DNA from: Marinicella meishanensis
GTDB lineage: Bacteria > Pseudomonadota > Gammaproteobacteria > Xanthomonadales > Marinicellaceae
Direction: 5' to 3'
DNA: 64,000 nucleotides
NCBI RefSeq assembly: GCF_019931145.1
Contig: NZ_JAIOUV010000005.1
Span: 1-64,000 of the forward strand
A program made the position numbers and the translations under genes. Under the pieces are notes generated by a model that saw nothing but the letters and a program-made list of their open reading frames with translations, was not told where the DNA came from and ran no database searches. Each line of letters starts with the position of its first letter. Positions within the stretch are counted from its first letter, which is position 1. Below, piece after piece: positions 42 to 14,148 of this stretch.

Positions 42-91
42 AGACTAATTCTCTCAAACTATTTAGTCTCCGACAAACCCGGGGCGATTCA
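1..91 (-). mobile_element. End of an IS3-family insertion sequence (rest lies left of the window)
   Basis: Read on the minus strand, the element starts at base 91 with TGAATCGCCCCGGGTTTG, followed by TCGGAGACT. This is the terminal inverted-repeat style (TGAxCxGCCCC...GGAGACT) that I know from many IS3-family elements. An OrfA start codon follows about 50 bases inside. The target duplication cannot be seen because the other end is outside the window. The insertion cuts the C39-like peptidase gene. Confidence 0.8.
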
Positions 92-1109
92 AGATGGGAT
101 TGTTAAATGATTTTTTATCATACTCATAACCTGTTAAAGTAATTAAGTGTCCAGCAGAATAATCCCAATTACTATTCTTGTCTTTCTTTAGAACGTCAAC
201 TCCTAATAAAACTGGTTCTCTTTTTCGACTCTGGTACCCATAAACGATACTTTTGAGTATTTGAATTGATTCGGAAACCCTAAACTCTTCATATGTTAAA
301 TCAAATGCTTTGATTGCATTTTGAATTAAGTAAGGAGTTAACCCATGGGCTCCTGTTAACCTGTACTCTCCAACATGCCCTTTAGACTCAGCCAGTTTTG
401 TAATTTCTGATGGAGAGGGAGCTTGAGTGCGGCTTGTAGCCTTCACTCCATAAAAAAAGCTCCATAATGCACTAGATGCGCAAGCCGCGATCGCTGTATC
501 TTGTTCCTGAAATGGTAAAGATTTCTTGATAACCAACTCTTTACCAAATAAGTTTACCTTGATAGGTATGGTTACCAAAAAATTTCTTTTAACATTGAGC
601 TTTTTATTAGATGCATCCTTTGCTGTTTTATCCGACTTATAAACTCTCAAACATGTCCTACCAACAATTGAGTTCAATAAAGGTTTTATTACAACAAAAC
701 CGAGATAGCCTTCCTTGAAAGAAGAATTTGTAATTTTGTCAGACAGACCTCGTAAAAAATTAATAAAGTCTATCCTAAAAAAAATTTCGTTACTAGATGA
801 ATCTATCAGAGCATTTTTATCGAAAAAATGAATCCGGGTACACATTTTTCCCAGGTCTGAAAAACTTCTTACATGATAGTTTGCATAATCTTCTAAGAAG
901 TGTCTATCTATGTACTCAGATTCAACAATCACAGTTCTGGCCTTTTCTCTTTCAAGGTAGCCAATCAAGTAATTAATTTGAATATTGTTGTAGAGTTGAT
1001 TTAAATTGGTGTTTTCATCACCAAGGATGTTTCTAAGTATTCTTACAAACAGTTCACTGGAAAATTCACAAACTTGCAGCCGCTGATTAGAAGTAAGCTC
1101 ACTTTCCAT
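63..1109 (-). pseudogene. C39-like cysteine peptidase, 3' end removed by IS3 insertion
   Basis: The open frame has 348 codons and no signal peptide. Residues 200-345 resemble a papain-like C39-family fold: Gln203 as oxyanion residue, Cys210 in AIAACASSALW as nucleophile, and His321 in SAGHLITLTGYE. The acidic or Asn residue that normally follows the His by 15-20 residues would lie past the break. Codons 341-348 (NRPGFVGD) and the stop come from the inverted repeat of the IS at 1-91, so the native protein was longer. Residues 1-190 match nothing I recognise. No Shine-Dalgarno sequence is visible. A 51-codon frame ends 27 bases upstream. The truncated product is probably inactive or unstable, but this is inference. 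Confidence 0.6.
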
Positions 1110-2297: not shown

Positions 2298-3614
2298 ATG
2301 ATGATCGATATTTCTAGAATAGCACTAATACTGACTGCAATAATAAGCACATCAAGCTGCGGGAATTCTAAAGGTAAAACCAAGCCCAATACAGCTGAAA
2401 CAATTTCTTACAACCTACCTTTAACTAAAGCAAAAATCGAAACAATTCTAACTTTACGAGACTGCACAAGTGAGCCAAAAGCAAGCGCTAGTGTATCTAT
2501 TTTCCCAATAGCAACTGCAGATCTTGACAATAAGCTAGAACTTTCAGGAGAAAACCTCTCATCATTCTTTAAAAAGAAAAGTTTATCAATTGAGTTACAT
2601 CCGCATGGATCAATCAAGACAATTAATGCAACATCTACAGATGCTACAGCTGAAATAATAGGAGGGTTTATTAAACTGTTAACTACCACTGCGGGGGATT
2701 CGACCGGAACTAAGCTTACGGTATGTAATAAAGAAACTAATGATGCATTAGAAACTAGAGGGAAAATTAAATCTAGAATAGATACATTAAGAGGTACTAT
2801 TTCTTCAGACAAAGACCCATCTACTGTTTTAGAACAAATTAATGCACTCGTTAAAGAGATTTCCTACTTAGATACCGGTATTCTACAAATCAAATTAGAA
2901 AAAGAAATAGGCTTTGCTAAAGAGGTAAATGGAGATCCAATTAAAGGAGGTTTGATAAAGTGGAATAGAAATTCTTTTAACAAATGGCTTAAAGAGGATA
3001 GTCAAGCAAATCCTGGAATCGTTGACTCATTCATGCTTGCTTACTGCGTATATAAACAAATTGACAAAGGCAATACATCGTGTACTTTAGCTGAAGCTAC
3101 AGTTCATGCAAAAAAGCAGCCTGAACTGATTAAGCCACCTGCATGTAAAGATAAGAATAATTGCTCAAATACTGTTGTCTTCCGAGACCCTGTACCTGGC
3201 AGGTTGGTTGTCGTAACAGGATCTGATGGCGAATTCGTAAGAAGAGATGGTAAAAAAGTTAATATTGAAACTAAACTTGCACAAAAAGACTTACACATTA
3301 GCCAATGGGGCCAATACACATTTTTGCCATTATCAGTTGGATTTGGTCAAAGCAAAAATGTTAGTCTTTCTTTGGATCCATTCGGCAAGAAAGAAAAGTT
3401 TGGTTACAGCTCTGAAGCAAGGGGCTCAGGTATTGTAAAAGGCTTAAACACTATTAACGATGCAATTCAGTTAAGACAAGCAACCCTTGATGGTGAAGAG
3501 TTGAAAGAGATGCAATCCAAAGTACTTGAATTAGAAACTCAACAAAAACTAAATAAACTGGAAAACTGTCGCGCAATTCTAGAGAATGGTGGATTTGTTT
3601 GCCCTGACGAATAA
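2298..3614 (+). CDS. Unrecognised lipoprotein, possible partner of the astacin gene
   Basis: 438 aa. The N-terminus has a short hydrophobic segment (residues 5-16) ending in a lipobox-like STSSC with Cys21 as the lipidation site, so export and membrane anchoring are likely. The rest is mostly hydrophilic, with several Cys (CTSEP, LTVCNK, AYCVYK, SCTLAE, PPACKDKNNC, NCRAIL, FVCPDE) that could form disulfides in the periplasm. The C-terminal 50 residues look helical. I know no family for it. The stop is 8 bases before the astacin start, which suggests one transcript. Start choice is open between two adjacent ATG codons at 2298 and 2301. Base composition is island-like, pointing to acquisition. 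Confidence 0.7.
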   Translation: MMIDISRIALILTAIISTSSCGNSKGKTKPNTAETISYNLPLTKAKIETILTLRDCTSEPKASASVSIFPIATADLDNKLELSGENLSSFFKKKSLSIELHPHGSIKTINATSTDATAEIIGGFIKLLTTTAGDSTGTKLTVCNKETNDALETRGKIKSRIDTLRGTISSDKDPSTVLEQINALVKEISYLDTGILQIKLEKEIGFAKEVNGDPIKGGLIKWNRNSFNKWLKEDSQANPGIVDSFMLAYCVYKQIDKGNTSCTLAEATVHAKKQPELIKPPACKDKNNCSNTVVFRDPVPGRLVVVTGSDGEFVRRDGKKVNIETKLAQKDLHISQWGQYTFLPLSVGFGQSKNVSLSLDPFGKKEKFGYSSEARGSGIVKGLNTINDAIQLRQATLDGEELKEMQSKVLELETQQKLNKLENCRAILENGGFVCPDE

Positions 3615-3622
3615 TTACTATA

Positions 3623-4390
3623 ATGGCAAATTTAGATCTTAAGCAAATTAATTCGATAGGCACACCAAAAAATCACACTGTAAATATGCCATTTGTCGGC
3701 ATTCGAAATGTTGCGTGTTATGAGCAAAATGGAGTTTCACGAATTGAGGGAGATATTGTAATTCCCTCAAGTTACAAACTGTCAATGATAGATCGCATAA
3801 GAGACTTTTTTCATTTAGGTCATACTATTGAACCTTCAAATGAAAATTTCTTATGGCCAAATGGCGTCATACCATACGTTGCTTTTCAGCGGGTTAATGA
3901 ACTTGTCCAAGCAGCAATTGAGCACTGGACGAACTTCACTCCTTTCGAGTTTAAAACTTATGAAGGAGAGTCAGATTATATTTCATTTGAACCCAATTCA
4001 TTCAATGATTCTCTTGTTGGAAGACATGGCGGCAAGCAAGTAGTTAATATCATTCCAACAACATCTGTTGGCTGGGTTGTTCATGAAATCGGCCATGTAA
4101 TAGGTTTATGGCATGAGCATAGCAGACCTGATCAAGAGGATAACATTGAAATTTTGTGGGACAATATAAGTGCTAATGACTACAACCAATTCAGACCCAT
4201 TCTTACAAATAATCAAGTTGTTGGTCCATACGACTATTCCTCAATTATGCACTATCCTGACACAGCTTTCTCTGAAAATGGCCAACTTACAATTCGAAGG
4301 AAAGACGGAGGTCACCTTGGGCCTAGAAATGGACTATCTCCTGGAGATTTACTCTCATGCAGGCACTTGTACCCTGACATAGGATGGTGA
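3623..4390 (+). CDS. Astacin-family (M12A) zinc metalloprotease without signal peptide
   Basis: 255 aa. LWPNGVIPY (77-85) is the usual start of the mature astacin domain. The zinc site HEIGHVIGLWHEHSRPD (154-170) gives ligands His154, His158 and His164 with general base Glu155. The Met-turn SIMHYPD (207-213) contains Tyr211, the extra astacin ligand. All catalytic residues are present. Residues 1-76 would be the propeptide, yet they contain no hydrophobic signal sequence, whereas most bacterial astacins I know are secreted. It either acts in the cytoplasm or leaves by another route. The gene follows the lipoprotein gene by 8 bases; 281 bases separate it from the subtilase. The target is unknown. 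Confidence 0.9.
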   Translation: MANLDLKQINSIGTPKNHTVNMPFVGIRNVACYEQNGVSRIEGDIVIPSSYKLSMIDRIRDFFHLGHTIEPSNENFLWPNGVIPYVAFQRVNELVQAAIEHWTNFTPFEFKTYEGESDYISFEPNSFNDSLVGRHGGKQVVNIIPTTSVGWVVHEIGHVIGLWHEHSRPDQEDNIEILWDNISANDYNQFRPILTNNQVVGPYDYSSIMHYPDTAFSENGQLTIRRKDGGHLGPRNGLSPGDLLSCRHLYPDIGW

Positions 4391-4560: not shown

Positions 4561-4671
4561 AAGATTAATCATGCTCTAAAGAAGCAATTTATTGCCAACA
4601 AATAGATACTATAAGTATTAGTGTTGATTTTATCTTTCATAATAATGAATTGGAGTGATGGAGAGTTGGAT

Positions 4672-6819
4672 ATGTCAAAACATTCTTTTTCTGTTCATAA
4701 ATTAGACCCTAGATTAAGAGTAATAAAAAACGGAAGTGACCTAGTAAATAATTGCCGCTCAAAATTATCTACCCAAGTCGCATCTGGGTCTCAAACCTCA
4801 TTTAAATTTACACCATTAGAAGATGGCCTTGATATTGCGTCTGTTCAAACTGCATCATCAATGCTTTCATCCAAAAGCATAATTAAGCACAGAAAAAAAA
4901 CTAAGTCTGTCTTAAGGAAAAGAAAAAAATTGGAAGAGAGCCTTGCCCCTGATTCTTCATTTGTAAATGTAATGATTGATGTATTCAATAATGAATCAAA
5001 TGATTCAAAATCATTCGATGATTCAATTAATCGAATTATTCAACAATGTGATAAAGCGTTAGATGGACGAACAACACCAATCGGAGCTAGCAAACCATTT
5101 GTTAGAGGGAATCAAGTTGTTGCTACTGTTCCAATTTCTTTTTTAAAAACGTTATCGCAGAACCCTGATGTTTCTTTTGTTAGTTTAAGCGAATCAATTA
5201 AACTTGAATTACCTCAACCACGAAATGGAATCAATCCCACAAATCGAAGAATAAATAAATCAAACATTCACAATAATGGAAAAGACATTATTATTGGAAT
5301 CATCGATGTTGGCGGATATGACTTTTCTCACCCCGACTTTTTAGATGATTCAGGCAAAACTAGATTTTCAAGTATATGGGACCAAGGAGGAAACTTTAGA
5401 CCTCCCCCAAAAGGTTTTCAATATGGAAGCGAGTTTACTGAAGAGCATTTGAATGCTGCTTTAAAAGAACAAAATACTGGCAATGGAATACCTGCTGTCA
5501 TTTTAGAAAAACAATCTCAACAAACGACTTCTTCACATGCAACACATGTCGCAAGTATTGCAGCTGGAAACAAAGGTATATGTTCTAAGGCAGAAATCAT
5601 TGGTGTGTTGATTGATGTCCCACAACCACAAGATACATACGAGAGAAGGAGGCAAACCTTTTCAGACACCAGTCGTATAATTCACGCAGTTGATTATATG
5701 TTAAAAATTGCTGATGAAAAGAAAAAACAAATTTCAATCAATATAAGTTTAGGAACTAATGGTGGTGCACACGACGGATTAAGTGGAACAAATCGTTGGT
5801 TTGACAATGCATTATCAGTACCAGGCCGATCAATAACAATGGCGGCTGGAAATTCAGGCCAAGACAAGCCTGAGTATGAAGATGATACAACGTGGATAAT
5901 GGGTCGTATTCACACAAATGGAAAAATTGCTTCAAGAGGATTAAGTAAAGAACTTGAATGGGTCGTTGTTGGTAATGGAATAGAGGACCTTTCTGAGAAT
6001 GAACTGGAAATTTGGTACAACTCACAAGATAGGTTTATTGTCGAATTATTACCCCCAGGGGAAAGCAAGTGGATCAGCGCTAAACCTCAAGAGTTCGTAG
6101 AAAACAAACGCTTGAAAGATGGAACCAATATTTCAATCTATAATGAACTGTATCACCCTACTAATGGTGAAAACTATATATCAATATATTTATCTCCAAA
6201 TCTCGAACCAAGTGAAATTAGGGGTATTAGGTCAGGTATTTGGCGTGTTCGGCTAGTTGGTGAAGAAATCAGAAACGGACAGTACCATTGTTGGATCGAA
6301 AGAGATGACCCCCATGAGTTTGGAATCTACCAAGGAAAAAGGCTTTTTAGATTCCCTTCATTTTTCTCTTTAAACTCAAATGTTGATTCTCACTCAATAT
6401 CATCTTTGGCTTGCGGACGCTCTACTATCGCTGTATCAAACTATGATCAGAATAAGAGTAAAGTAAACTCAACAAGTAGCCAGGGACCAACCCGTGACGG
6501 TCGACAAAAACCAGATATTGCAGCACCAGGTACCGATATAATTGCTGCAAATGGTTTTGCTCAAGATGGAAAAAAATGGGTTTCAATGTCAGGGACAAGC
6601 ATGGCAAGCCCATATGTAACCGGAGTTATTGGCCTCATGATGAACTCAGCTAAAGGGCCGATCAATTCTATTCAATGCCTTGGAATACTACAAAGAACCT
6701 CTAGACCTCTTCCTGGTAGTACCTATGAGTGGAAAAATGATACTGGCTTTGGGTGTATTGACCCTGAAGAAGCAATCAAACAAGCAGAGTATTTTTCCCG
6801 AAGAATAGAAAAAACTTGA
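4672..6819 (+). CDS. Subtilisin-family (S8) serine protease, CspA-like layout, intracellular
   Basis: 715 aa from the ATG at 4672, chosen because GGAGAG lies 6 bases upstream; the frame is open to 4621. The catalytic set is complete: Asp212 (IGIIDVGG), His289 (SSHATHVAS, a variant of HGTHVAG), Asn394 (MAAGNSG) and Ser643 (SGTSMASP). About 190 residues lie between the Asn and the Ser blocks. That insertion, together with ISLGTNGGAHDG before the Asn, recalls the Csp-type subtilases of clostridia, which carry a jelly-roll insertion there. No signal peptide or membrane helix is visible. The N-terminal 190 residues, with a strongly basic patch around 73-90, may be a propeptide or sensing region. 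The MBL gene follows after 8 bases. Confidence 0.92.
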   Translation: MSKHSFSVHKLDPRLRVIKNGSDLVNNCRSKLSTQVASGSQTSFKFTPLEDGLDIASVQTASSMLSSKSIIKHRKKTKSVLRKRKKLEESLAPDSSFVNVMIDVFNNESNDSKSFDDSINRIIQQCDKALDGRTTPIGASKPFVRGNQVVATVPISFLKTLSQNPDVSFVSLSESIKLELPQPRNGINPTNRRINKSNIHNNGKDIIIGIIDVGGYDFSHPDFLDDSGKTRFSSIWDQGGNFRPPPKGFQYGSEFTEEHLNAALKEQNTGNGIPAVILEKQSQQTTSSHATHVASIAAGNKGICSKAEIIGVLIDVPQPQDTYERRRQTFSDTSRIIHAVDYMLKIADEKKKQISINISLGTNGGAHDGLSGTNRWFDNALSVPGRSITMAAGNSGQDKPEYEDDTTWIMGRIHTNGKIASRGLSKELEWVVVGNGIEDLSENELEIWYNSQDRFIVELLPPGESKWISAKPQEFVENKRLKDGTNISIYNELYHPTNGENYISIYLSPNLEPSEIRGIRSGIWRVRLVGEEIRNGQYHCWIERDDPHEFGIYQGKRLFRFPSFFSLNSNVDSHSISSLACGRSTIAVSNYDQNKSKVNSTSSQGPTRDGRQKPDIAAPGTDIIAANGFAQDGKKWVSMSGTSMASPYVTGVIGLMMNSAKGPINSIQCLGILQRTSRPLPGSTYEWKNDTGFGCIDPEEAIKQAEYFSRRIEKT

Positions 6820-6827
6820 GACAAGCT

Positions 6828-8147
6828 ATGAAAATCAGAATTTTTCAATCCGATCATGGTGATTGCCTATTGCTTCAAAATGAAGGACACAATATTCTCT
6901 GTGATGGTGGTTTATACTCAAGTATGAAAAGTCATGTTCGTAAACCATTAAAGAAGCTTGTAGAAGATAATGGAGGTTTACTTGATGCTATTTATGTATC
7001 TCATCTTGACCAAGATCACATTTCAGGAATCCTACAGTTAATGAGAGATGCAGTAGACTGGAAGGTGTTTGATTATCATAGGAACAATGGCGACATGGAT
7101 GTTATCGAACCTGGCTTTATTCGTCCACCAAAAATTGGAATGTTATGGCACAATTCTTTCAGGGATCAAGTTGGAAAGAATGTCGGTGAAATTGGAGACA
7201 TATTAGCAGCTGCAGCACCGGTCTTAATTAGCACTGGTGTAAAAGAATTTATTGAAGAAGCCCATGAAATTGGTAATGTGGCATCATCAATCAGAGAAGC
7301 TCTAGAGGTATCAAGTTACACGAAACCAGAGTTTTTAGATATAAAAACTAATATTCTGCCAGGGCACAATGGACCTGGTAAGTTATTGTTCAGAAAAGGA
7401 AATGGTACTAAGTTTTCAATTGGGTCAATGAACTTCACAATTGTTGGACCTTCAAAAGAAGCTCTAAATGACTTACGCGATGGATGGAATAATTGGCTAG
7501 AAAAAAGCGAAGGAATAAGGGGAACAAAAGCGATCAAAAAGAAAGTAAAAAAACAACTAGAACGATTTGCTTCTGGACAAACAAACCAATCACCTTTTGA
7601 TTTATACAACTGGAATGGTATCAGTTCATTTAGAGGAGTAACCGCTCCAAATGTAGCATCACTAGTTTTAATGGTAGAAGAAAATGGAAAACTCATTTTA
7701 TTGACTGGCGATGCTCAACAAGATAAATTACTTGAAGACCTTGAGGCAACAGGATACTTGTCGGAAGGCTATTGTCATCTTGATGTTCTTAAAGTTGCTC
7801 ACCATGGTTCAGAACATAATACTGATGAAAATTTCGTAAAGTTAATCTCAGCTGAAAATTATGTTTTTTGTGGGAATGGTGCAAATGGAAATCCTGAACC
7901 TAAAGTGCTTGAATACATATACAATTCTCGACTAGGCTCAAATAGAAAGCGCGCTTTATCTCCTCAAGCAAAAGACAGGCCATTTACTTTCTGGTTTTCC
8001 ACTAATTCAGAGGCGTTACCTCATGATAGCGAAGAACGTAAAAATTTTGAGGAAACAGAAAAAATTGTTAAGGATATGGCTAAAAATAGTAATGGGTTAA
8101 TGAAAGCAAACTTTGTTCGAAGAGAATACAGAACAATTGATATTTAA
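6828..8147 (+). CDS. ComEC/Rec2-like metallo-beta-lactamase-fold hydrolase
   Basis: 439 aa from the ATG at 6828; a TTG at 6816 is in frame but overlaps the subtilase stop. It opens with a beta-strand and GDCLLL as in ComEC-type MBL domains. SHLDQDHISG gives the metal ligands His59, Asp61, Asp63 and His64. LLTGDA holds Asp295, and KVAHHGSEHN (His325, His326) is the usual ComEC-type closing motif. There are no membrane helices, so this is a free-standing soluble hydrolase, not the DNA-uptake channel. Substrates of such stand-alone proteins are mostly unknown; phosphodiesters or nucleotides are plausible. The 8-base spacing to the subtilase suggests translation from one message and a shared role. 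Confidence 0.9.
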   Translation: MKIRIFQSDHGDCLLLQNEGHNILCDGGLYSSMKSHVRKPLKKLVEDNGGLLDAIYVSHLDQDHISGILQLMRDAVDWKVFDYHRNNGDMDVIEPGFIRPPKIGMLWHNSFRDQVGKNVGEIGDILAAAAPVLISTGVKEFIEEAHEIGNVASSIREALEVSSYTKPEFLDIKTNILPGHNGPGKLLFRKGNGTKFSIGSMNFTIVGPSKEALNDLRDGWNNWLEKSEGIRGTKAIKKKVKKQLERFASGQTNQSPFDLYNWNGISSFRGVTAPNVASLVLMVEENGKLILLTGDAQQDKLLEDLEATGYLSEGYCHLDVLKVAHHGSEHNTDENFVKLISAENYVFCGNGANGNPEPKVLEYIYNSRLGSNRKRALSPQAKDRPFTFWFSTNSEALPHDSEERKNFEETEKIVKDMAKNSNGLMKANFVRREYRTIDI

Positions 8148-8302
8148 CTAATGGTTTCACGAGCAAATCAGTCTAGTATTGTTAGCAATATCATGCTTAA
8201 AATTTTATTTCTAAACTTTGGAATGTAATGCAATAAAAAGTACAGCGTAGAACGTTCCACTATGTTGCCAACGCCAGTTACTAAATCAGTGTTAAATTTT
8301 TT

Positions 8303-8848
8303 TCAAGTAACTTCTGGAAATCTTTTGGGCTCTATTAATGGAATGATAAATGTATACATTGGCAATATTAGAGATGCAATTACCGGGCTATACCAATCAT
8401 AGAGTCTAAATGGCCCTTCCAATGTAAAAGCCCATATAAAAAATGCAATTGATGAAATTACTAACTGTGATGTTTTGTTAATACCAGCTACACGTTTTAG
8501 ATACAAAAAAGTTCCTAATAGACAAAATACAAATACAGACCAAAGAGCTATCTTACTTGTTTTCAAGTCTGTTGACATGATGATGTTTGTTAGACTGACA
8601 TAGAGAATTATGACTTCACCTGGAATATACTTGAGCAGCTTTGTCGTATAGTTATCTGCACCTTTATCAATCTTTGATTGGATATCTTTAATTTCTTGAT
8701 TTGCAGAAACAATCTTTTCATTAATTTCTTTTTGATTTTTTGACCCATAAGCATAGTCCAACTCTTCTAACTGAGTAGCTCCATTAATTTTATTATCTAA
8801 CTTATTTTTTAGCTTTTCGATTTGTTTTTCAGAAACTATTTCTCGCAT
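8303..8848 (-). CDS. Small membrane protein with N-terminal coiled coil
   Basis: 181 aa. GGAG lies 6 bases before the ATG, which supports the start. Residues 1-70 are Lys/Glu-rich and helical (a likely coiled coil). They are followed by four hydrophobic segments at about 76-92, 99-117, 127-143 and 152-172. KYIPGEVIILY marks the entry to the first. The gene converges on the subtilase/MBL pair with a 155-base gap. I recognise no family. A compact coiled-coil plus four-helix layout is common in membrane effectors of conflict systems, but that is only an analogy. Confidence 0.72.
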   Translation of the reverse strand: MREIVSEKQIEKLKNKLDNKINGATQLEELDYAYGSKNQKEINEKIVSANQEIKDIQSKIDKGADNYTTKLLKYIPGEVIILYVSLTNIIMSTDLKTSKIALWSVFVFCLLGTFLYLKRVAGINKTSQLVISSIAFFIWAFTLEGPFRLYDWYSPVIASLILPMYTFIIPLIEPKRFPEVT

Positions 8849-9416
8849 AATAACTCCGAATATATGGGTATCAGTTAAATTTCAGCTATCATAAATATGA
8901 TTCATGTTTAGAGATTATAGCCGTTTCAAAAGTAATTATTTATATCAATTTGAACAAAATGTACAAATTCAATGTGGGCAATAATAAAAAATATCCCTTT
9001 AAATCCAGCATTCGGTACTGATATTTTTAATTTGCTTTTTGAATTTAACTTTGGCTAGAAAAAAATTACTGCATTCGATTACTCCTAAGGTGATCCTTCT
9101 GGCTTTAGGTATTTCTTGGTTTAATCATTCATAACAAGCACCTCCAAAAATTACATGATAAATCTATGGTTTGGTATTTATTTCCAACAATCAAGGGACC
9201 TAATACTGATCAAATTATGTTAATACTATGATTAGTCCATCAATCAGGAATATACATGCTTTACAGGACAATAGAATATTCTCACAGGTAAATAAGAGTT
9301 TTCGTGGGTAACGTAATAGATTTTTATCAACAAAAGTCAAATTATTGAATTACATTTAATCGTCTATTTGCAATATCTGATATATATTTGCATCTTCTTT
9401 TGAAAATGACAGAACT
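8849..9416. other. AT-rich spacer of 568 bases, no gene recognised
   Basis: No frame with coding character, tRNA-like fold or clear hairpin terminator was found. The bases next to 8848 must hold the promoter of the membrane-protein gene; beyond its GGAG ribosome site I could not place -35/-10 boxes. A short plus-strand frame ending near 9135 (HSITPKVILLALGISWF) could be a gene relic but matches nothing I know. Confidence 0.35.
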
Positions 9417-10391
9417 TCACCCCTTTTTTATTTCATCGACTATATAACTGACGACCTCTAATCCAAATAAATCCACAAAGAAGCTAATAAAAAAGGTACA
9501 CAGCTCAAAATTTTGCTCACGTTCAGAATTGGCAAATAACCTAGAGTAAAAAGCTCTTGTTTCTTTATCGATTAGACCAAATTGTTTAATTAATTTAATT
9601 TTCTGGTCTCGAGTTCTTACTAGGTCAAATTTCTCAGCAAAATTCAGAAGAAATAATCTAAGCAACCTCTCATAATAGAATGTTGACTTAACATCTTTAA
9701 AATTTGTAAGTATGTTGTTGTTAACGAAATCATCTTCTGTCCATTTGTAACAAAATCTTGATTTGAGAAGGAGATACATTCTAAGAAAGCTGAAATTCGA
9801 ATTTGATATAACCGATTGAGTCATGATTGTTTCTCTAAACTCATTCATAATTAGTTTTTTGCAAAGGAAATGGCTTTCCATTTCAGCTTTTAAGATCAAG
9901 AGGATTAAGCCATCAAGTTGATCAGAAGCTTCAAGTAATCGGAGTTTTGAGATCTTTAAAGGAAGATTTTTCAGTGAAACATAAAACATGTTATTTGTAG
10001 GATTATTGTCCATAAGTATTCTGTGTATTTCTGACCCTGGCATTTCACTTAATATCTTGTCGAAATCGGAATCATGAGAAAAGTCTCCTGTAAGCGCCTC
10101 CCAAAAAATCATCTTGGCCCATTTTTCTGTTCCTGGGAAAAATATTTCAGCTACTTTTACATTTCTCCTCTTAGGGCTCCGGATTCCCTCTGAATAGTTT
10201 CTCCAATCTCTCGGAATTTTGGTTCCACCACCAGGGTTTTTATAAACTTTATCAGGAGCTAAAAAGAGTTGTAACTCATCTGGATCATCTATTCCAAGCT
10301 CGGAAGAAACGATACTTGCATATGTTTTTCTATATAGTTCTTTGATTGATGGAAGTTTTGCAAAACCTCTAACTATTTTTATTTCAACCAT
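9417..10391 (-). CDS. Unrecognised accessory protein (324 aa)
   Basis: Start taken at the ATG at 10391 because AGGTG lies 6 bases upstream; a GTG at 10400 is in frame. Residues 60-105 show a W-x-x-Y-x-x-G-x-x-x-P ... FPGT-x-x-W spacing (WRNYSEGIRSPKRR, then FPGTEKWAKMIFWEAL). I recall this spacing from other uncharacterised accessory proteins, and it may be a helix-turn-helix-like domain. The remainder is helical and rich in Leu, Phe and Lys, with no signal peptide or membrane helix. It is divergent from the 86-aa gene across about 100 bases, so the two may share control. No function can be assigned. Confidence 0.65.
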   Translation of the reverse strand: MVEIKIVRGFAKLPSIKELYRKTYASIVSSELGIDDPDELQLFLAPDKVYKNPGGGTKIPRDWRNYSEGIRSPKRRNVKVAEIFFPGTEKWAKMIFWEALTGDFSHDSDFDKILSEMPGSEIHRILMDNNPTNNMFYVSLKNLPLKISKLRLLEASDQLDGLILLILKAEMESHFLCKKLIMNEFRETIMTQSVISNSNFSFLRMYLLLKSRFCYKWTEDDFVNNNILTNFKDVKSTFYYERLLRLFLLNFAEKFDLVRTRDQKIKLIKQFGLIDKETRAFYSRLFANSEREQNFELCTFFISFFVDLFGLEVVSYIVDEIKKG

Positions 10392-10490
10392 AGCAAACAC
10401 CTAAGTGCGACTAATTCTGGCAAAACTTGTCTGTTAATTTTCATTGATGATTATTGTACATTTAAATCTATAGACAAGTTGGGTCAATCT

Positions 10491-10805: not shown

Positions 10806-10999
10806 ACGTTAAGAAAGTATTTGTACACTGACTTTTCTTAATTATCGTACCTCCACATTGGAATGTCAAGAAATCATGCTACTTATTGTTGTCATGTGAA
10901 GGCTTCCTATTGCTTCTCAATCACCAGTTTTTTGTGTTGGTAACTGGTTAGTTTAGGAGCAGAAAATGTTTTCAATCCAAATAAAAAATGGAGGTAGAG

Positions 11000-12079
11000 A
11001 TGCCTCAACAATATAGACAGCGTGCAGAAAGGAGAGATTTAACGCTTGATGATATTTATCGAATGTCTGAGCAAGAAGCCATTCAGTTTATCGCTAAAGC
11101 TAGGTGGGGTTCAGATACAAAAGAAGTATGTCCAAGGTGCGGAGCCTTTGATTCGCATTATTATAAGAGAACCCGCAAGCAATGGGTTTGCAAACATTGC
11201 AATCATACGTTTAGTCTTACATCGAGCACTGTATTTGCAAACAAAAAAATTTCAGCAAGAAAGCTGTTGAAATTAATTTGCATGTTCGTGATTCCTGCAA
11301 AAGGCATTTGCGCAAACGATCAAACAGGCATGTTCGGCCTGAGTCATAAATGTGTATGGTTGATATCTCAAAAGATTCGTGAGGGACTATTAAGATCGAG
11401 AGACTTGAAGCCATTAACTGGTATGGTTCATATTGATGGCGCATATTTTTGTGGCAAACGAAGGCATGGAAGAATTCGTAACTACAAACTTGCACACAAG
11501 CATTATGAGGCAATGATTGCTTCGAAAGGGAAAAACAAACCTCCTCTGAATCCAACTCAGAGACGAAACTATGCTAGAAGGATGAAGTATAGACGCGTAT
11601 TACTGGTTTTCAGACAGGTAAGTCAGAAGCCAGGTGATGGGACTGACAGAACCATAGTAACTGTGGTCAAAGCTGAGGATGAGAACAGTGTTCGAAAACA
11701 TGTTGAAAGGTTTGTTGAGCCAGGAAGTACAGTTTGGACGGATGACCACAGTTCGTATAACTTTTTGTCCGAAGAGTATGATCACAGTACTGTTGAACAC
11801 TCAAAAGAATTCATGACAGTGGATGGCATTCATAATAATCATGCGGAATCCTTTTTCTCAAGGGTCAGACGTTCGGAATTGGGTGTTTTCCATGGTATGC
11901 GCACCAAATACTTGATGGACTATGCCAATGACATGGCATGGCGTGATGACATGAGAAGAAAGTCTATCAAAGAATTGATGACTACATTGATTTGCAAAGT
12001 GATGTCAGTAGGAAACTCAATTTGGTGGTCTGGTTACCAGCAAGGATTTAACAGAAGCGGCGAGCTTCTAGATTATTAA
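11000..12079 (+). CDS. IS1595-family (ISXO2-like) transposase
   Basis: 359 aa from the ATG at 11000. GGAGGT at 10990-10995 is the ribosome site and overlaps an earlier ATG at 10988, which argues against that start. An N-terminal zinc ribbon (CPRCGAFDSHYY, then CKHC) is followed by an ISXO2-like DDE domain: HIDGAYFCGKRR around residue 144, TVWTDDHSSY around 248, and the HNNHAESFFSRVRR block around 280 near the end. The frame looks intact. I could not define the terminal repeats. ACCAGTT at 10923-10929 and AACTGGT at 10942-10948 form a small dyad upstream. The last 12 bases overlap the convergent 161-aa gene. Confidence 0.88.
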   Translation: MPQQYRQRAERRDLTLDDIYRMSEQEAIQFIAKARWGSDTKEVCPRCGAFDSHYYKRTRKQWVCKHCNHTFSLTSSTVFANKKISARKLLKLICMFVIPAKGICANDQTGMFGLSHKCVWLISQKIREGLLRSRDLKPLTGMVHIDGAYFCGKRRHGRIRNYKLAHKHYEAMIASKGKNKPPLNPTQRRNYARRMKYRRVLLVFRQVSQKPGDGTDRTIVTVVKAEDENSVRKHVERFVEPGSTVWTDDHSSYNFLSEEYDHSTVEHSKEFMTVDGIHNNHAESFFSRVRRSELGVFHGMRTKYLMDYANDMAWRDDMRRKSIKELMTTLICKVMSVGNSIWWSGYQQGFNRSGELLDY

Positions 12080-12699: not shown

Positions 12700-13386
12700 A
12701 TGAAACACCGAACATGCACCATACCCATCTTGCTGTTGTTTATGGCAGCTGCCCAGGCCGCAGAAATGCGTTTTGATCAACATGGTAATATGTTGTTGCC
12801 CGACCACACGTATCTGACCCAGGGCTTGAAAGACCATCGGCAAGGCTATCCCAATGATGCCATGCGAAATTTAAAAAAAGCCGCCAAGTTCGGCAACCCC
12901 TATGCGCAATCAGCCATTGCTTACATCCACCTGCAACAAAAAGAGCATCAGCTGGCGTTGGCTTGGTTTCAGTTGGTGGATTTGAAAATGATCGATAAAG
13001 ACCAAGCCATCATTGAACTGATGGATGCATTACAAAAGCATTTGTCCGCCGCTGAGTTGCAAGCAGTCGATCGCTTGTATCAGGCATTGAAATTGGAATA
13101 TGGCAAATCTGCGGCTCTTGAACATCGCATTGCCTGGCAAAACGGCATTGCCATTGGCGGCACCAAATTGAAGGGTAAGGTGCCTGGCAGGGTGAAAATT
13201 TACCCATCTGCCCGCATCGAGAAAAAAGGCATGGAAACAGAAATCTTTGTTTCTGGTACGGTGGTATCCGGTGAATCAGTGCGCTTGCAGATGGATGAAT
13301 TCGTGTTTGAATACGAATTGCGTTTCACCGAAGGCCGGGTGCGCATGGGCGAGCTGGAATTGCTGGAAGAAGAAGCCCAAATTTAG
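12700..13386 (+). CDS. Secreted Sel1/TPR-like repeat protein, first of a tandem pair
   Basis: 228 aa. The signal peptide has a Lys/Arg start, a hydrophobic core ILLLFMAAAQA and likely cleavage after AQA (residue 20). The mature part begins FDQHGNMLLPDHTYLTQGLKDH and then has a Sel1-type alpha-hairpin pair: NDAMRNLKKAAKFGNPYAQSAIAY and LALAWFQLVD. AGAGG lies a few bases before the ATG. It is a paralogue of the next gene, with the same signal, the same DxHxYLxxG opening, the same KAAxFGN helix and the same acidic tail. The function is unknown; Sel1 proteins usually bind other proteins in the periplasm. Confidence 0.72.
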   Translation: MKHRTCTIPILLLFMAAAQAAEMRFDQHGNMLLPDHTYLTQGLKDHRQGYPNDAMRNLKKAAKFGNPYAQSAIAYIHLQQKEHQLALAWFQLVDLKMIDKDQAIIELMDALQKHLSAAELQAVDRLYQALKLEYGKSAALEHRIAWQNGIAIGGTKLKGKVPGRVKIYPSARIEKKGMETEIFVSGTVVSGESVRLQMDEFVFEYELRFTEGRVRMGELELLEEEAQI

Positions 13387-13479: not shown

Positions 13480-14148
13480 ATGAAAAAATTCACCCTCTTG
13501 TTGCTGTTCGTTGCCACCGTTGGTATGGCCAAAGATTATGGTTTGCATTTTGATGATCGCGGCAACATCATCAAACCCGATCAGCATTATTTGTGGAAAG
13601 GCATTGACGATGAAAAGGACGGCTTCCGTCAGTCCGCTTTCAAAAACTTCAAGAAAGCCGCGGAGTTTGGGAATTTTCATGCCATGTCGTTGGTGGCATT
13701 GTATTACATGCAAGACCAAGACTACCTTCAGGCCCATGCCTGGTTCAATTTGATTGATTTGGCGAAAATACCCAACCGGGCTTACATTGAAGAGATTGTT
13801 GGCAACCTGGAGCAGATCATGTCCAAGGATCAGTTGAAAAATGCCCAAGAGATGAAGGGCACCTTGGCCGAGACTTATGGGGCCTATCCCACCTTGTTGC
13901 GACGAGAGGAATGGAAAAAGAACATGAAGTTCACCGGCACCCACATCAAAGGTTACATTCCCAACTTCCTACGCATTCAGTTGAATTCAGGAGCGGTCGT
14001 GACCGGCAGTGATTTGAAAGAACAGATGGAAAAATTCATCTACGAATATGAATTCAGCTTTGGCCAAGGTGAAGTGACCTTGGATGAAATCGAACTGATT
14101 GAAGTGGATGAAGACGCTGCAAAAGGCGCTGACGACAACGAGCCATGA
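13480..14148 (+). CDS. Secreted Sel1/TPR-like repeat protein, second of a tandem pair
   Basis: 222 aa with signal peptide MKKFTLLLLFVATVGMA. The layout matches the preceding gene: FDDRGNIIKPDQHYLWKG, then FKNFKKAAEFGNFHAMSLVA and AHAWFNLIDLA, and a very acidic end (VDEDAAKGADDNEP). A strong AAGGAGA ribosome site lies 8 bases upstream. The gap of 93 bases from the first copy, the same strand and a terminator just after it suggest one operon formed by duplication. Confidence 0.72.
   Translation: MKKFTLLLLFVATVGMAKDYGLHFDDRGNIIKPDQHYLWKGIDDEKDGFRQSAFKNFKKAAEFGNFHAMSLVALYYMQDQDYLQAHAWFNLIDLAKIPNRAYIEEIVGNLEQIMSKDQLKNAQEMKGTLAETYGAYPTLLRREEWKKNMKFTGTHIKGYIPNFLRIQLNSGAVVTGSDLKEQMEKFIYEYEFSFGQGEVTLDEIELIEVDEDAAKGADDNEP

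Follow-up and report, generated by a model that had tools for sequence, protein, structure and literature searches.

The closest described relatives of the gene pair reported here are nucleases of the metallo-beta-lactamase (MBL) fold that are controlled by a protease. In the main text of Tuck et al. (Science 2025, PMC12799240), HamM and Avs1a, which are partnered with trypsin, and CanC of canu, which is partnered with a caspase, are described as gated pro-nucleases that are cut or activated by the partner protease, and such activation is attributed to Hachiman and AVAST (trypsin) and to canu (caspase). According to the same text, I134 and I234 are the cut positions of Avs1a, cutting unleashes a DNase, the assayed members of HamMAB and CanABC degrade DNA, and RNA is no substrate of HamM. 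It also describes a sensor fused to the protease in the trypsin systems, co-purification of CanA with CanB, canu loci in which the protease gene precedes the nuclease gene, and more homologues paired with proteases of other, diverse families; subtilisins are not named in that main text. Here we analyse two genes in the first 64 kb (hereafter the window) of contig 11 of Marinicella meishanensis, whose genome is 3.99 Mb. The first encodes a subtilase of peptidase family S8 and the second, directly downstream, an MBL-fold protein.

We consider it likely that this pair is a stand-alone, two-gene switch in which a protease gates a nuclease, most likely an anti-phage system (abortive infection) or another system directed against mobile elements. 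The pair resembles HamM and Avs1a in belonging to a sister MBL clade, in the ComEC fold, in two insertions after the HxDxDH motif, and in an adjacent, coevolving protease gene. However, its protease is a subtilase encoded upstream rather than one fused to a sensor, and no STAND, helicase, SMC or reverse transcriptase (RT) gene is conserved nearby. In AVAST type I, Avs1a is flanked by the trypsin-like Avs1b and the STAND protein Avs1c, whereas here the protease is an S8 and, as the initial annotation had noted, no STAND NTPase is found among the window neighbours by Pfam or PADLOC, the contig beginning at base 1 and leaving 4.6 kb of upstream view. The pair shares with canu a free-standing protease gene upstream and an MBL gene downstream, but canu uses a caspase with an Ig-like fold in place of S8, and a CanB-like partner is absent here. 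New relative to the known gated nucleases are thus the subtilase, where those have trypsin or a caspase as partner, its free-standing form, and the lack of a conserved sensor gene. If so, the pair would extend protease-gated nuclease immunity to subtilases, with two genes as the simplest form of the mechanism. We found no description of an S8-MBL pair in the open literature, in a search outside of which lay the figures and supplement of PMC12799240; an S8 branch may be visible in Fig. 4A of that paper, because nucleases are annotated there by partner protease family. A NucA-type endonuclease flanked by S8 and trypsin domains in one polypeptide, reported in a 2020 survey of conflict systems (PMC7159879), is conceptually similar and unrelated.

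Conserved pairing of the S8 and MBL genes

Both reading frames are intact, the first running from an ATG at 4672 to a stop at 6817-6819 and the second, 8 nucleotides (nt) further on, from an ATG at 6828 to a stop ending at 8147. An alternative GTG start for the S8 gene lies at 4621; we prefer 4672 because the N-terminal motif is conserved in homologues. The GC content lies at 30-41% over the first 12.5 kb of the window and at 51-55% past 14 kb. The description of two complete enzymes 8 bases apart in an AT-rich island, given in the initial annotation, was therefore accurate, and so was the statement that export signals are lacking, in that no hydrophobic signal is visible at either N-terminus by inspection (no dedicated predictor was run). 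Scans for promoters and terminators gave nothing above chance, and a search for a tRNA or direct-repeat integration site found none.

The search for relatives covered plasmids and 84,980 species, each represented by one genome. Of the 49 scorable MBLs of the clade (the non-ComEC relatives) among the matches listed, 47 have an S8 gene immediately upstream and on the same strand, and the two without one are L038 and L039. Left out of this count were L048 and L068 (ambiguous assemblies) and L053 and L065 (cut by contig ends); L061 and L083 look like near-copies. A fusion of the two genes in L068 was considered and rejected, since the serine region of the S8 is missing and the MBL part is out of frame; it is probably a deletion or an assembly artefact and was not used. 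Three S8 subtypes can be discerned, I, II and a small III. Pairs with S8-I occur in at least 17 species of Pseudomonadota, Acidobacteriota, Actinomycetota, Planctomycetota, Bacteroidota and Chloroflexota, with the S8 gene immediately upstream in all of them. In addition, a close MBL (at least 33% identity over most of the length) occurs in 12 plasmid records and a close S8 in exactly these, with the two genes adjacent in every one. The initial annotation had left room for a chance pairing, in which homologues would rarely be neighbours or the MBL would always accompany a ComEC channel; we find the MBL partnered with a protease, never with a channel, and the adjacency is not accidental. In viral contigs the S8-I/MBL pair was not found, the matches being one S8 at 33% and four weak MBL fragments. 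None of 17 sampled congeners, and none of the other sampled genomes of the order, has the pair, which was therefore probably acquired recently.

In 16 of 21 S8-I pairs the two genes share 4 nt where they meet (an ATGA or GTGA overlap), when the longer start of L013 is taken, and the remaining pairs lie within ~13 nt. Distance matrices of S8 and MBL are correlated both in S8-I (Mantel r 0.85, p 1e-4, 19 pairs) and in S8-II (Mantel r 0.65, p 1e-4, 26 pairs), in each case with species history uncorrected. Such coupling of translation and coevolution would also suit an antagonist pair, in which the S8 is not an activator of the MBL and the two are a toxin with a restraining partner, or independent enzymes that are co-selected (for example, an S8 whose degradation of the MBL keeps the latter silent until a phage blocks translation). 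However, related MBLs have partner proteases that act as activators in the account of PMC12799240, and the CspB relatives of the S8 are zymogen activators (PMC3567191), so that we regard the antagonist arrangement as distinctly unlikely. On plasmids, more distant S8s (~30% identity) have other neighbours that are not annotated MBL genes, and the MBL partnership is thus specific to the S8-I subtype. In the plasmid loci L103-L108, such ~30% relatives have unrelated partners (PLD-like, M4 and M6 genes, and hypothetical pairs), which suggests that mobile elements carry a broader family of CspB-like proteases.

The MBL protein as a predicted pro-nuclease

The best PADLOC models for the MBL protein are LmuA (7.7e-46), Avs1a (4.2e-30) and RTasMBL (4.9e-29), and the NCBIfam Avs1a model matches it at 3.3e-35 and 121.6 bits, far under the equivalog cut-off of 420 bits. 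Residue alignments of both proteins were built from the window and genome loci only, with no plasmid-record sequences; in them the metal-binding residues H59, D61, D63, H64, D295, H325 and H326 are intact, and they are invariant in 40 sequences. In a quick maximum-likelihood tree, every S8-partnered MBL falls in one clade (support 100), which also holds the unpaired L038 and L039 and is sister to the trypsin-partnered MBLs including Avs1a (joint support 96); the caspase-partnered MBLs lie further out, and ComEC domains form the outgroup. The canu-type MBLs L070-L072 are outside the S8-partnered clade. These three (in L070, positions 5868-10432) are canu-like caspase-MBL loci in their own right, and one, in Devosia, has two consecutive caspase-like genes before the MBL.

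The predicted structure (mean predicted local distance difference test score, pLDDT, 87) has as its best solved match the crystal structure of the MBL domain of Moorella ComEC (9ic4; Z 21.5, root-mean-square deviation 2.6, 239 residues, Foldseek rank 1). The term ComEC-like, used in the initial annotation, is right both for the fold and for the active-site motif (SHxDxDH ... LLTGD ... HHGS). The protein differs from the MBL domain of ComEC/Rec2 in being a free-standing chain of 439 residues with no channel domain, with ~110-140 extra residues and in another clade. The ComEC fold and the SHxDxDH motif could point to a housekeeping or competence role, with the MBL as a detached ComEC nuclease for DNA uptake. 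Yet the host encodes a separate, complete ComEC on a different contig (407 bits), and the MBL is therefore not ComEC; with the partner a protease and the pair missing from the sampled congeners and the rest of the order sampled, we hold a competence role to be extremely improbable.

The span from HxDxDH to NxxS has a median of 207 residues in S8-I MBLs and is 190 in trypsin-partnered ones, against 66-96 in the three ComEC domains having both motifs, and so ~110-140 residues appear by sequence to be inserted between the two active-site motifs relative to ComEC. Two stretches are candidates for a gate (Table 1), and low pLDDT within them is a proxy for disorder, not proof of it. In alignment with the Avs1a of Chimaeribacter (L098), insertion 1 near residues 153-155 matches the KAIS stretch (I136). 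L259 of insertion 2, which is aliphatic in 19 of 20 S8-I MBLs amid variable residues, falls at most one residue from I237 of the same protein. By their position, I136 and I237 of Chimaeribacter would correspond to the cut sites of Erwinia Avs1a, and from these alignments I155, L159 and L259 are candidate cut residues.

The S8 protease and the proposed switch

The catalytic residues D212, H289, N394 and S643 of the S8 are complete and invariant in homologues. The block HATHVAS, which the initial annotation had called a variant, is ordinary, both HATHVAS and HGTHVAS being found in the subfamily. By sequence and by structure, the best solved relatives are CspB, CspA and CspC, germination subtilases of clostridia (4i0w, 9pr8, 6mw4; Z 31.5), which rank first over 423-497 residues and share the fold, an N-terminal prodomain and a jellyroll inside the protease domain (predicted for the S8). 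The prodomain of CspB remains attached as an inhibitor of the protease until a germination signal arrives, and the cutting of SleC by Csps is confined to one site (PMC3567191); CspB is thereby the activator of a zymogen. The S8 differs from the Csps in lacking the cspBAC/sleC context of spore germination, its neighbours being the MBL gene and unrelated genes, and in having an extra N-terminal motif, an MBL partner, and a presence in non-sporulating phyla. The model is of moderate quality (mean pLDDT 71.7, 16 sequences), and its confidence is low in places, e.g. 598-621. Structural alignments with CspA/CspC and pro-Tk-subtilisin start at S8 residues 94-97. The N-terminal motif was found in no other open reading frame of the loci fetched and scanned, and when its consensus was searched against 72,556 plasmids (7.3 Gb), matches were limited to the 12 records with the pair.

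Table 1. Features of the S8-MBL pair and their positions in the window
Feature	Position	Strand	Basis
S8-I protease gene, CspB-like intracellular subtilase, 715 amino acids	4672..6819	+	Pfam PF00082 Peptidase_S8, 1.7e-23
N-terminal motif P-K-L-R-x3-N-G-x3-V-N-x2-R-A-E (S8 residues 13-31)	4708..4764	+	in every S8-I; pLDDT 77-87 for residues 11-30
Predicted I9-like prodomain (S8 residues 96-172, beta-alpha-beta-beta-alpha-beta)	4957..5187	+	AlphaFold2 secondary structure
Beta-rich insert (S8 residues 412-565), between Asn394 and Ser643, at CspB jellyroll position	5905..6366	+	AlphaFold2 strands
MBL-fold predicted pro-nuclease, 439 amino acids	6828..8147	+	PADLOC LmuA/Avs1a/RTasMBL; ComEC MBL domain 9ic4
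Candidate gating insertion 1 (MBL residues 111-160)	7158..7307	+	pLDDT 58-79; absent from ComEC by span
Candidate gating insertion 2 (MBL residues 221-270)	7488..7637	+	pLDDT 55-80; aliphatic L259

We propose that the MBL would be made as a pro-nuclease in which the two insertions obstruct the ComEC-type active site, and that the S8 would be a CspB-like protease restrained by its retained N-terminal prodomain. A trigger, which the S8 itself might sense through the N-terminal motif, the prodomain or the jellyroll, would open the prodomain latch; the S8 would then clip the MBL insertions, and the freed nuclease would degrade DNA, so that the cell is killed or arrested. The latch step is modelled on CspB, and the destruction of DNA by the freed nuclease on HamM, Avs1a and CanC; latch release, cleavage, DNase activity, the trigger and the defence role are what we infer. 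The central idea of the initial annotation, a proteolytic switch acting on an MBL nuclease and related to AVAST type I without a STAND, fits all of the evidence; the suggestion that the N-terminal 190 residues of the S8 dock on the MBL fares less well, as in the model they appear to be mostly an I9-like prodomain and a short motif, with no obvious docking domain. A stricter version, which we put forward tentatively, is that of an immune switch reduced to two genes: the S8 would be its own sensor, perceive an infection cue directly and unleash a gated DNase without STAND, SMC, helicase, RT or adaptor, and subtilases would be a third protease class after trypsin and caspase to drive gated nucleases, recruited in at least three S8 subtypes. 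Such a switch would tie a fold known from the activation of germination zymogens (CspB) to bacterial immunity, and the triggering of a prodomain-latched subtilase would become testable in a small two-gene system.

Several points weigh against a protease-gated DNase with a defence role. For S8-partnered MBLs themselves, cleavage, DNase activity and phage defence are predictions from analogy. Several aliphatic positions of the MBL are conserved (I122, L133, I155, L159, L259) and no single P1 residue is singled out among them; the QG/EA motif of gate 1 could be structural, and the S8-II clade has a far shorter insertion 2. In addition, the fold of the choline-binding esterase CbpE nearly equals ComEC as a match (Z 21.0 against 21.5), followed by RNase J and tRNase Z. 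The similarity to CbpE, a phosphorylcholine esterase, would agree with a proteolytic switch in which the MBL is not a DNase and hydrolyses a nucleotide signal, RNA or phosphodiester lipid head-groups, the S8 either activating or destroying it. However, by sequence the MBL groups with Avs1a, LmuA and RTasMBL and is sister to the trypsin-partnered MBLs, whose assayed relatives in HamMAB and CanABC act on DNA, which makes a substrate other than DNA unlikely.

A further point against a two-gene switch is that no sensor gene is seen that would account for its triggering. A required third component, such as a STAND, SMC or helicase sensor, could have been lost or could lie to the left of the contig end, where the window begins, and both the protease-fused sensors of the trypsin systems and the association of CanA with CanB offer precedents. 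Against this, any third gene is common to at most 3 of 20 S8-I loci (up to 5 kb of flank per side), except for chromosomal neighbours that two Cupriavidus have in common, and we regard a missing component as very unlikely; for the same reason, the S8 itself would be the sensor in the proposed switch, or the cue would be a general state of the cell.

Genomic setting and neighbouring genes

The setting of the pair on mobile plasmids (of the 19 plasmid records matched by the MBL, 13 are conjugative) and the types of genes near some loci (Shedu-domain, kinase/phosphatase, TIR, SIR2 and FRG genes) suit a role in defence. PADLOC also gave HEC-01, Thoeris, TIR-SAVED and PARIS-like matches near S8-MBL loci. 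The enrichment of defence genes is nevertheless weak and not convincing in comparison with the ComEC-locus control, which likewise counts against a defence role. We do not claim enrichment, because generic models (mad3, mad8, AriA) are equally frequent near the control loci, and for this reason the defence role is argued mainly from kinship.

Four S8-II loci (L014, L015, L016 and L017) have variable upstream genes (TIR-domain; patatin and a hypothetical gene; FRG-domain), and L014 has a DUF2235 gene downstream; these flanking genes may be interchangeable extra effectors.

Close to the pair in the window, positions 8303-8848 (-) encode a small coiled-coil and multi-transmembrane protein without a Pfam match. 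Its sole homologue among the fetched genome loci is at 7405-7908 of L032 (Bacteroidota), 29 nt upstream of the S8 gene, and further homologues occur on two plasmids, where they do not adjoin annotated S8 genes; it is a possible accessory component. Upstream of the pair, an astacin-family (M12A) metalloprotease is encoded at 3623-4390 (+), with LegP as the nearest NCBIfam model (1.3e-51, under the equivalog cut-off), and a lipoprotein-like gene with a lipobox (STSSC, by eye) at 2298-3614 (+) ends 8 nt before it. These two look like a separate operon inside the AT-rich island, and they were rejected as parts of the module, being without homologue in the other loci. At 63-1109 (-) lies a gene for a 348-residue protein without a Pfam match, in which a cysteine is followed far downstream by GHLITLTGY, a resemblance by eye to papain/C39-like peptidases. 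An intact IS1595-family transposase gene (ISXO2-like; 10988-12079, +) lies towards the right-hand end of the AT-rich island, and just beyond the island two tandem paralogues (12700-13386 and 13480-14148, both +) encode small proteins that are apparently exported and in which Sel1-like stretches can be made out by eye.

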